DNA of 64,000 bases from Actinomycetota bacterium (GTDB lineage: Bacteria; Actinomycetota; Actinomycetes; S36-B12; CAIYMF01): positions 1 through 64,000 of the forward strand of contig JAIUOK010000022.1 of the NCBI GenBank assembly GCA_020161245.1. The letters are read 5' to 3'. Position 1 is the stretch's first letter, and each line of letters starts with the position of its first letter. Position numbers and translations under genes: made by a program. Under the pieces are notes generated by a model, which made no database searches, had not been told where the DNA came from, and was given only the letters and a program-made list of their open reading frames with translations. Below are positions 12,642 through 19,563 of this stretch, one piece after another.

Positions 12642-13877
12642 TCAGACGGTGAGGGAAAGGCTACCTTCCGCCGCGGCACCTCCCGACACGGCCGCAGGAG
12701 CGCCCGGCTGCTGCCGCGGCCGGGTGGCGGCCGCGACGAGCGCCTGGGCGATCCCCTGCAAGGGCAGCACCAGGTCGCACACCTCGGCCCGCACGACCGA
12801 GCCCGGCATCCCCCAGACGACGCTCGTGGCCTCGTCCTGCGCGATGACCAGGCCGCCCTGCCCGTGCAGGACGGTCGCGCCGTCGGTGCCGTCGCGGCCC
12901 ATGCCCGTGAGGATCGCGGTCACCGTCTGGCCGCCCCACACCTCGGCTGCGGAGCGGAGGAGCACGTCGACCGACGGGCGGCACGACTGCACCGGCTCGC
13001 CGAAGTCGTGCACGAGCACCGGCCGGCCGTGCCGCAGCTCGACCCTGGTGTGGCTGCCGCCGGCGGCGATGTGGACTCGGCCCGGCAGGCACGGCATCCC
13101 GTGCGACGACTCGACGACCGGCACGGCGCACACGGCGTCGAAGCGCCGGGCCAGGCTGGCCGTGAACATCGGCGGCATGTGCTGGACGACCACGACCGGG
13201 ACCGGCAGGTTCGGCGGAAGCGCGGGCAGGATCGCGTTGAGCGCGTCGGGGCCGCCGGTGGAGACGCCGATGAGGATCGCCTGCGGCATCCCGGCGGAGG
13301 GGCGCGCCGCGGCCGGCAGCCGCGGCCCGGGCGGCGCCGTCCGCACCGGCAGGTCCGGCGGACGGGGGACGACCCGGCTGCGGCACGAGCCCCATGCCCG
13401 CACGCGCGGCGCGAGCCATCGGGCGATCTCCTGCTGGGCGTCCGCGCGCGACGCGGACCGGCTCGGCTTCGCCCACACGTCGTTGGCCCCGAGACGCCAA
13501 GCCGTCTGCGCTACCTCGGACCCCCGCTGGGTGATCGCGCTGACGACGATCACCGGGAGCCGGGGCCACCGCTGCTTCATCGTGCGCAGCGCGGCCAGCC
13601 CGCCCATGCCGGGCATCTCGAGGTCGAGCAGCACGACGTCGGGGCGCGACTCCGACAGGATCTCGAGGGCCTGCTCGCCGCTGCCGGCGACGGCGACGAC
13701 GTCGATGCCGCCGCTGTGCGTGAGGGCGTCGTGGAGCAGGCGCCGGACCACCAGCGAGTCGTCGACCAGCATGACCCGCACGGCGTCGCGCAGGTCGACG
13801 CGGCGCTGGGGGAACCGCAGCTCCGCTGCGGCCGGCGGCGGCGCGCCCGTGGGCCCGGCCGTGCTCATGGAACTCAT
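12642..13877 (-). CDS. cheB: Chemotaxis response regulator protein-glutamate methylesterase
   Basis: A 411-residue CheB. The receiver domain (about 33-145) has the acidic pair at 39-40, the phospho-acceptor Asp85 in LLDLEMPG and the lysine in WAKPS. After a Pro/Arg-rich linker, the esterase domain (about 197-395) shows the Ser-His-Asp triad: GVSTGGPDAL (Ser206), QHMPPMFT (His233) and GMGRDGTDG (Asp329). It would demethylate or deamidate chemoreceptors. ATG at 13877 follows GGAAGGG; a second ATG lies three codons later. No cheR, cheA or receptor gene is in the window, so it is an orphan placed directly before guaB. Confidence 0.9.
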   Translation of the reverse strand: MSSMSTAGPTGAPPPAAAELRFPQRRVDLRDAVRVMLVDDSLVVRRLLHDALTHSGGIDVVAVAGSGEQALEILSESRPDVVLLDLEMPGMGGLAALRTMKQRWPRLPVIVVSAITQRGSEVAQTAWRLGANDVWAKPSRSASRADAQQEIARWLAPRVRAWGSCRSRVVPRPPDLPVRTAPPGPRLPAAARPSAGMPQAILIGVSTGGPDALNAILPALPPNLPVPVVVVQHMPPMFTASLARRFDAVCAVPVVESSHGMPCLPGRVHIAAGGSHTRVELRHGRPVLVHDFGEPVQSCRPSVDVLLRSAAEVWGGQTVTAILTGMGRDGTDGATVLHGQGGLVIAQDEATSVVWGMPGSVVRAEVCDLVLPLQGIAQALVAAATRPRQQPGAPAAVSGGAAAEGSLSLTV

Positions 13878-14038
13878 GGCGACGTCCCTTCCGTGGGTGG
13901 TCGCCGGTGCTTCGGCGGGCCGGCGGCGGCGCCTTGATCGCCGATCACCCGGGCGGCGGAGGGGCTGACCGGTCAGGGACCGCACGCCTGCTCCGGACGG
14001 GCGCACCTCGCCGCGGAGTGCTCAGGTCCGGCAACGAC

Positions 14039-15870: not shown

Positions 15871-16905
15871 TCACACGCCCACCGCGCGGGCGATCGTGGC
15901 AACCGCGCCGGTGAGGTCGTGCACGTGGGCGACGCCGGGCGGGGCCGGCTCGGTCCAGCCGGGGCCGCCGGTGAGCACTACCGGCGCAGGCCGCATGGTG
16001 GGCAGCTCCTGGAGGGCCTGGGCACCGCCGTCGGAGGTCGGGTACGCCGACCACAGCAGCACGGCGCTGGGGCCGGTGCGGCGCACCGCGGCGACGAGCG
16101 CGTCGTGGGGCATCCGGGCGCCCAGCACGCGCGCGCCGATCCGGCGCTCGGCGAGGGCCGCGGCCAGTGCGAACAGCGGCAGCGAGTGCATCTCCTCGGG
16201 CGCGCACGCCAGCAGCACCGGGCGCGGGTTGATCGGCGCCCGCAGGCGCGTGGTGACGCCGGTGAGCGCGGACGTGACCGACTCCGACAGCAGGTGCTCC
16301 ACCTCGACGCCGGTACCGGTCTGCTCCCAGCGCCGCCCGATGCCGACGAGGACGGGCACCACGAGCTCGTCCCAGGTCCACACCACGCCGCGCCGCTCGA
16401 GGGTCTCGCGGACGATCTCCCCGCAGGCGATGGGGTCGAGGCTCATCGCGGCGCGGGCGAGGCCGCGCACGGCCGGCGACCCGTCCGGCAGCGGGATGAC
16501 GTTGCCGCCGCCGGCGCCTGCGCCGCTGGGCGCGACGTCGGCGAACAGCGGGTCGATGTCGGCGTCGACGGCCTCGGTGGGCGGCGGCACGAGGCCGGTG
16601 GGGCCGGGCACCGCGGCGGCCGGGGCGACGTCGGCGGCGAGGGCCGCACGGGCGGCGTCGGCCGGCGGCACCCCGGTGTTGACCAGGCGGCGCATGTAGT
16701 CCAGCCGCGCGACGTCGGTGGCGGAGTAGCGGCGGTGGCTGCCGGCGGTGCGCTCGGTGGGGCCGAGGCCGTAGCGGCGGTCCCAGGTGCGCAGGGTCGC
16801 CGGAGCGACGCCGAGGCGGCGGGCCACCGCGGCCACGGTGAGCCCGGGCACGGTCGCCGGTCCGCTCTCGGGCGCGTCCGGGGACGGCGAGCCAGAGACG
16901 ACCAT
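15871..16905 (-). CDS. MerR-family regulator with cobalamin-binding domain (CarH/LitR-like)
   Basis: A 344-residue regulator. A MerR helix-turn-helix (about 20-90) has VAAVARRLGVAPATLRTWDR and GSHRRYSATDVARLDYMRRL. After a Pro/Ala linker a four-helix B12-cap domain follows with the W-x9-EH motif (Trp193, Glu203, His204) that caps adenosylcobalamin in CarH. A Rossmann-like B12 domain has EEMHSLPLFAL, an E-x-H-x-x-G-like lower-ligand motif (His240) with Pro in place of Gly. Relatives are light-sensitive repressors, often of carotenoid genes. ATG at 16905 follows GAGGG. No carotenoid genes are in the window. It probably acts as a B12-dependent, possibly light-dependent, regulator. Confidence 0.85.
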   Translation of the reverse strand: MVVSGSPSPDAPESGPATVPGLTVAAVARRLGVAPATLRTWDRRYGLGPTERTAGSHRRYSATDVARLDYMRRLVNTGVPPADAARAALAADVAPAAAVPGPTGLVPPPTEAVDADIDPLFADVAPSGAGAGGGNVIPLPDGSPAVRGLARAAMSLDPIACGEIVRETLERRGVVWTWDELVVPVLVGIGRRWEQTGTGVEVEHLLSESVTSALTGVTTRLRAPINPRPVLLACAPEEMHSLPLFALAAALAERRIGARVLGARMPHDALVAAVRRTGPSAVLLWSAYPTSDGGAQALQELPTMRPAPVVLTGGPGWTEPAPPGVAHVHDLTGAVATIARAVGV

Positions 16906-16950
16906 GACGCCCTCAGTGTGGCCCCCGCCTCGGGACATCGCCAATCGAAA

Positions 16951-16972
16951 CGCGCCAGGACCGCGCCAGAAG
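16951..16972 (-). promoter_or_regulatory. Tandem 11-bp direct repeat, candidate operator
   Basis: CGCGCCAGGAC and CGCGCCAGAAG follow each other with an exact 11-bp period, about 46 bp upstream of the CarH-like start. CarH proteins bind tandem 11-bp repeats in known cases, although with a different sequence. The right copy is part of the block shared with the whiB promoter. Confidence 0.45.
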
Positions 16973-17242
16973 GCGGTCGACGCCGGAGCCCGGCTCCGAC
17001 GTCCAGGGCGCTGCTCCCCTGGGCCCTCCGCAGCAGGCGCCGGGATCCGGACGCGGACCGGACGGGCTCGCCTGCTCCGGAACGAAACAGCAGGTCAGAC
17101 CGTTGCCAGAAGAACACGGGCACCGACTCCGCCACGGGGAGCATCCAGCAGCGGGATCGGCGCCGAAGAAGGGTCGGACAGGCACGGCGGCGTCATCCCC
17201 AGACTTCTCCACACTTGTTCATAAGTTGTTCAACACAGAAGG

Positions 17243-17271
17243 TTGACCAACTTCTGGCGCGGTTGTACGGT
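17243..17271 (+). promoter_or_regulatory. whiB-like promoter
   Basis: A -35 TTGACC (17243-17248) and a -10 TACGGT (17266-17271) are separated by 17 bp, a good housekeeping-sigma promoter. The spacer contains CTTCTGGCGCGGT (17251-17263), also present upstream of the B12-type regulator. A ligand-responsive regulator could bind here. GGAAGGGG before the ATG at 17301 serves as ribosome site. Confidence 0.65.
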
Positions 17272-17796: not shown

Positions 17797-17837
17797 GCAG
17801 CAGGGCCCCCGCCTCGTCGAGGCGGGGGCCCTGCTGC
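17797..17837 (-). terminator. Terminator hairpin behind groEL
   Basis: Perfect 19-bp arms (17797-17815 and 17819-17837) with a three-base loop, only 13 bp beyond the groEL stop. One of the strongest hairpins in the window. Confidence 0.85.
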
Positions 17838-17850
17838 TGGTACGGGCCGA

Positions 17851-19563
<1,713 letters not shown>

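Follow-up and report, generated by a model that had tools for sequence, protein, structure and literature searches.

Prediction of a CarH/LitR-like MerR regulator controlling whiB3 and its own gene through operators of 11-bp units in actinomycetes

Introduction

The LitR-LitS locus of Streptomyces is a light-inducible ECF sigma factor locus. CarH, the B12 photoreceptor repressor of Thermus thermophilus, Bacillus megaterium and myxobacteria, has operators made of tandem 11-bp repeats that include the -35 element (PMC9304148), and its adenosylcobalamin tetramer is destroyed by light (PMC9304148, PMC8156234). Two motifs, Wx9EH and ExHx2G-x41-SxV/T-x22-27-GG, mark CarH and class I LitR (PMC8156234). 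Both the LitR-LitS loci and the tandem-repeat operators of CarH are already known; what appears to be new here is a CarH/LitR-like regulator with whiB3 as its conserved predicted target.

In actinobacteria WhiB3/WhiD holds a central place in redox and developmental regulation, and few inputs to its own promoter are known. A search of the literature (subscription papers were outside its coverage) found nothing that joins CarH or a B12-binding MerR to WhiB, WhiB3 or WhiD. In two small-genome freshwater actinobacteria, some 40-54% of transcripts change over the light/dark cycle; the candidate light sensors considered there are rhodopsins, photolyase and cryptochromes, with no mention of cobalamin or CarH (PMC8591293).

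Here we describe a divergent merR-whiB region in a 64,000-nucleotide stretch of actinobacterial DNA, the whole of which we call the window. We suggest, with a probability of about 0.7, that a B12-type CarH/LitR-like MerR controls whiB3 and itself as a repressor, acting through a divergent operator-promoter built of 11-bp units; the reading draws on sequence and on analogy with CarH. The features are listed in Table 1.

Table 1. Features of the merR-whiB region of the window
Feature	Position	Strand	Basis or remark
merR, CarH/LitR-like MerR regulator	15871-16905	-	Pfam, PDB relatives, fold
Site C, merR-proximal tandem 11-bp units TCGACCGCCTT, CTGGCGCGGTC, CTGGCGCGTTT	16948-16980	-	Scores and same-genus loci
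Site B, inverted tandem pair TTGAACAACTT, ATGAACAAGTG, merR-facing	17212-17233	-	Two-unit score, profile match, conservation
Site A, tandem 11-bp pair TTGACCAACTT, CTGGCGCGGTT	17243-17264	+	Over -35 and spacer of whiB promoter
Predicted whiB promoter: -35 TTGACC (17243-17248), 17-bp spacer, -10 TACGGT (17266-17271)	17243-17271	+	Sequence
whiB, WhiB3/WhiD-like iron-sulfur regulator, 101 aa	17301-17606	+	Pfam Whib, E 2.6e-27

Results

The MerR protein

The merR product contains the Pfam domains MerR_1 (helix-turn-helix), B12-binding_2 (four-helix) and B12-binding (Rossmann), all above their cut-offs. Translation likely starts at the ATG at 16905, the TTG at 16944 being merely the first start codon of the open reading frame. 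Its best PDB relatives, by sequence and by profile, are CarH/LitR of Thermus. The AlphaFold model has a mean pLDDT of 87.8, and its cobalamin domain matches photocobilins and CarH equally (Z 19-20 to CarH). A cobalamin adenosyltransferase gene is present in the genome.

The CarH motif Wx9EH is found in the window protein as WEQTGTGVEVEH. Among the orthologues W131 is kept in 93/96, E141 and H142 each in 96/96 and the axial H177 in 93/93; three MerR proteins of family f10 have Phe in place of the key Trp. The longer cobalamin motif is not intact in the window protein: ExH and the second G are retained, while G is replaced by Pro, Ser by Trp and V/T by another residue. The Pro for Gly (ExHxxG) and the Trp for Ser (SxV/T) occur throughout the whole MerR clade. 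In this fold these Gly and Ser positions line the nucleotide-tail pocket, and the sequence changes of the clade might mean that another cobamide is bound or that the nucleotide tail is displaced. Because two positions of the cobalamin-tail motif are altered, we call the protein CarH-like and not a strict CarH. The best NCBIfam family is CarH, but at 85 bits against an equivalog cut-off of 400. Additionally, the GxxH of the published light signature (PMC11796333) is absent from the window protein.

These features bear on an alternative in which MerR binds the repeats and controls whiB3 but the signal is not light: it may instead be how much adenosylcobalamin is present, a different cobamide, some other ligand or nothing at all. 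The altered pocket residues of the clade, the missing GxxH and the Phe of the three f10 proteins all point that way. We nevertheless consider this alternative rather unlikely, since the adenosyl-capping Wx9EH and the axial His are almost invariant and a homologue in family f22 lies between ECF sigma and photolyase genes, which is a light-response setting.

The whiB gene, its promoter and the sites

The whiB product has the four Cys and the GVWGG of a WhiB domain, as found by pattern search. The neighbouring gene is groEL (17851-19488), which we take to agree with a WhiB3/WhiD identity. The protein is a candidate WhiB3/WhiD, and a second, weaker WhiB is present in many genomes. Between whiB and groEL there is a long GC-rich inverted repeat (17797-17841), probably a terminator shared by convergent genes. 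Elsewhere in the window, the open reading frame at 12642-14006, flanked by guaB and a LuxR-type response regulator, appears from its translation to join a receiver domain to a CheB-type methylesterase, with no obvious chemotaxis cluster nearby.

The first-pass annotation had reported a block shared by the two promoter regions, and the sequence confirms it: 18 of 21 bases agree between 16980-16960 on the minus strand (TCGACCGCCTTCTGGCGCGGT) and 17243-17263 on the plus strand (TTGACCAACTTCTGGCGCGGT), and exact copies of the 13-mer CTTCTGGCGCGGT lie at 16960-16972 (-) and 17251-17263 (+). The second of these copies lies, as proposed, in the spacer of the predicted whiB promoter, between TTGACC and TACGGT. 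On the merR side CGCGCCAG is repeated at 16951 and 16962, a spacing of exactly 11 bp; the annotation had noticed this period and likened it to that of CarH operators, in agreement with the published repeat length (PMC9304148).

In site A, unit 1 holds the -35 and unit 2 occupies the spacer. The two units score 23.7 bits, and the site (profile E 4.1e-5 in the window) is the sole profile match in the window's genome. The best merR-facing site is site B, which the annotation had overlooked. It lies upstream of site A and in 11-bp register with it, has a two-unit score as high as that of site A (24.3 bits) and a profile E of 0.019 in the window. Site C is weak when taken alone (7.9 bits for two units, 6.3 for three). 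In the same-genus loci L010-L015 the corresponding position also carries tandem units, four of them in a row in L010 (read by eye), and in L013 the set merges with the inverted pair. The merR-side repeats are kept within the genus.

Classical MerR promoters have a long spacer of 19-20 bp. At 86/93 of the boxes scored here the distance between the -35 and the best -10 is 17-18 bp. Because this spacer is normal and the geometry is as in CarH, bound MerR should block the polymerase. We doubt strongly that MerR instead activates whiB3 from the spacer in the classical manner. The spacer is where MerR activators bind, and the merR-proximal set is located just upstream of a possible merR -35, but the whiB3 spacer is of ordinary length, the -35 is near consensus and usable by polymerase unaided, and the site covers the -35 itself.

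Conservation of the box and its dependence on MerR

Of the 30 best MerR loci in the order, 28 have the WhiB-MerR pair. Alignment of the whiB upstream regions of the order gives one strongly conserved block, TTGACCAACYT-ATGAMGCGRTT, followed by the -10. This block is a tandem of two 11-bp units in which TG and TT occupy identical places, and it is found in 93/94 scored upstreams, the scoring matrix having been trained on those same upstreams. The sole upstream without the box (G020) comes from a complete genome that has whiB3 and no such MerR. Across 90 sequences conservation resumes at -11 to -20 and, more weakly, at -22 to -31; this stretch is the 11-bp unit on the other strand, and there is almost no conservation farther upstream. 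Because the inverted pair lies one 11-bp step upstream of the tandem pair, the conserved core is about 55 bp long, that is five 11-bp steps, which by their sequence positions share one face of the DNA. The whiB promoter is the top profile match in every sampled genome that has the box in the scan. A protein scan of named genomes gave only two relevant matches, both in actinobacterial MAGs.

On this alignment the conserved entity is the 11-bp unit nTGRMnMRnTT, and the exact 13-mer is one local version of a more degenerate motif. Conservation in relatives that keep both genes, which the annotation had called for, holds for the 11-bp box and its spacing and fails for the 13-mer. The 13-mer was accordingly rejected as the functional unit.

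A wider sample of the class was scored with a matrix trained only inside the order, a score above 7 bits being taken as a box. Outside the order, 28/30 whiB genes beside MerR have the box compared with 1/24 without MerR (Fisher p 6e-12, uncorrected for kinship of the genomes). One genome (G173) holds two whiB3 genes, and the MerR-adjacent copy scores 23.7 and the other -12.5. Within family f23, the one genome with an adjacent MerR has the box and six without MerR have none. The Streptomyces-like and mycobacteria-like families of the sample have neither a neighbouring MerR nor a box at whiB3. Exceptions are few: L167 (degenerate, -2.9) and L168 (-17.1, with a MerR only 36% identical) score low despite a MerR beside whiB, and L177 scores 8.6 without a neighbouring MerR. 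The number of independent gains or losses is small (two on a strict count, six on the best tree), the WhiB tree being too short for many contrasts. Because the box tracks MerR across these contrasts, MerR is likely to be its DNA-binding partner. Sites, conservation and dependence on a neighbouring MerR can all be read from the sequences themselves. The earlier suggestion that the regulator controls both itself and whiB thus gains support from the conservation of the box, its confinement and its absence where MerR is lacking.

It is highly improbable that the box belongs to some other factor, such as a sigma factor, WhiB itself or the BldM-like response regulator encoded nearby. A whiB promoter probably answers to more than one regulator, and the needs of polymerase alone would keep TTGACC and the -10 conserved, but whiB3 genes without MerR lack the box, even inside one genome, MerR without whiB3 still has units, and conservation goes beyond the -35 and -10 to an 11-bp repeat in the spacer. 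WhiB autoregulation, the BldM-like regulator and a sigma factor were each rejected as owner of the box on the evidence of the whiB3 promoters without MerR.

The exact 13-mer occurs twice in the whole 4,287,795-bp genome, both times in the merR-whiB intergenic region, so the genome scan that the annotation had proposed finds exact copies practically confined to that region. With up to one mismatch there are 9 copies, compared with 16 for the backward control, which is the background rate; one such copy, inspected in context, is inside a histidine-kinase gene. Scans of the window's genome for further targets, with the 22-nt profile and with the two-unit pattern, gave none that was convincing (at two mismatches the pattern has 14 genome matches, against 9 in all of the backward control). 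A coincidental 13-mer match between two stretches of GC-rich DNA is a negligible possibility: one-mismatch copies elsewhere are at background and site C alone is weak, but a 13-mer common to both halves of the intergenic region arose in only 2/2000 dinucleotide shuffles, and conservation across order and class excludes chance.

MerR loci without whiB3

In two genomes of family f3 (L037 and L038) MerR has no neighbouring whiB3 and a different small gene lies opposite. This gene (L038:2497-2765 and the matching minus-strand stretch of L037) encodes 65 aa (METKFKVKYYARKTLL...) and is of an unfamiliar family. In L038 its promoter carries the units TTGCAAAAGCT, TTGCATCAGTT and CTACTCT, and the gene, with 11-bp units in its promoter, may be a replaced target.

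In family f22 (L238:1862-4980, L241:2884-3448 and L242:1194-1765) a MerR homologue is located beside an ECF sigma gene that has a strong pair of 11-bp units upstream, the gene names having been assigned by reading translations. These upstreams score 20.8-28.0 bits; among 100 shuffled 400-mers the highest score is 8.5. In L238 a photolyase-like gene is divergent, with the MerR homologue between it and the ECF sigma gene. By their gene content and units the f22 loci look like the LitR-LitS light locus.

Finally, in family f14 (L233:2093-4780, L236:2228-4926 and L235:28-2769) whiB3 has been lost, and MerR is still at the same groEL locus, directly behind groEL. No box was seen near these MerR genes, and therefore MerR there has other targets or none. 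A search for a displaced whiB-type operator in f14 and in the other MerR genomes without a whiB3 neighbour gave only weak matches.

Discussion

In our preferred reading, that of a MerR repressor of whiB3 and of its own gene, the protein would recognize tandem units of nTGRMnMRnTT. One pair of units would cover the -35 and the spacer at the whiB3 promoter, a second, inverted pair would lie one 11-bp step upstream, and a third, tandem set would precede merR. By analogy with CarH, a cobalamin-loaded MerR oligomer would bind in the dark and block RNA polymerase at whiB3 and merR. Light, or a shortage of adenosylcobalamin, would release MerR, and the [4Fe-4S] regulator WhiB3/WhiD would be made. We infer the binding of MerR, its cofactor, its light response and repression; the light response in particular is suggested by the conserved CarH residues and by the light-type loci of f22.

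This gives whiB3 a concrete candidate input: the predicted operator is mapped, and its regulator would respond to B12 or light. The broader proposal, that a B12-photoreceptor branch with a remodelled cobalamin-tail pocket puts WhiB3/WhiD under light control in several actinomycete orders, including small-genome lineages for which the search for light sensors continues, seems to us evenly balanced. If true, it would mean that a B12 photoreceptor known for governing carotenoid or sigma-factor genes has been redirected to an iron-sulfur regulator.

The window WhiB is taken as orthologous to mycobacterial and Streptomyces WhiB3/WhiD; the genomes of the sample presumed to be mycobacterial or Streptomyces differ in lacking both a MerR neighbour and the box of 11-bp repeats. 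Photocobilins, which are B12 and bilin photoreceptors, have a cobalamin domain whose fold resembles that of the modelled protein as closely as CarH does (Z about 20), but the window MerR has a MerR DNA-binding domain and lacks an extra C-terminal domain of the bilin-binding type. The LitR-LitS loci of actinomycetes encode a homologous MerR (42-50% identity), and the f22 loci share the pair of 11-bp units before the ECF sigma gene. In contrast, the window MerR has no adjacent sigma gene, its neighbours being whiB (at the groEL locus) and a gene for a TPR-type protein.

CarH differs from the window MerR in its targets, which are carotenoid genes and not the predicted whiB3, and in its repeat consensus (nnnnTnnACAn, whose TnnACA is only partly matched by nTGRMnMRnTT). 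The window system also stands apart by an inverted pair that keeps register with the tandem one, and by the Pro and Trp in the cobalamin-tail motif. The two nevertheless have in common the MerR helix-turn-helix and cobalamin module, Wx9EH, the axial His, the fold, and an operator of tandem 11-bp repeats of which one holds the -35.
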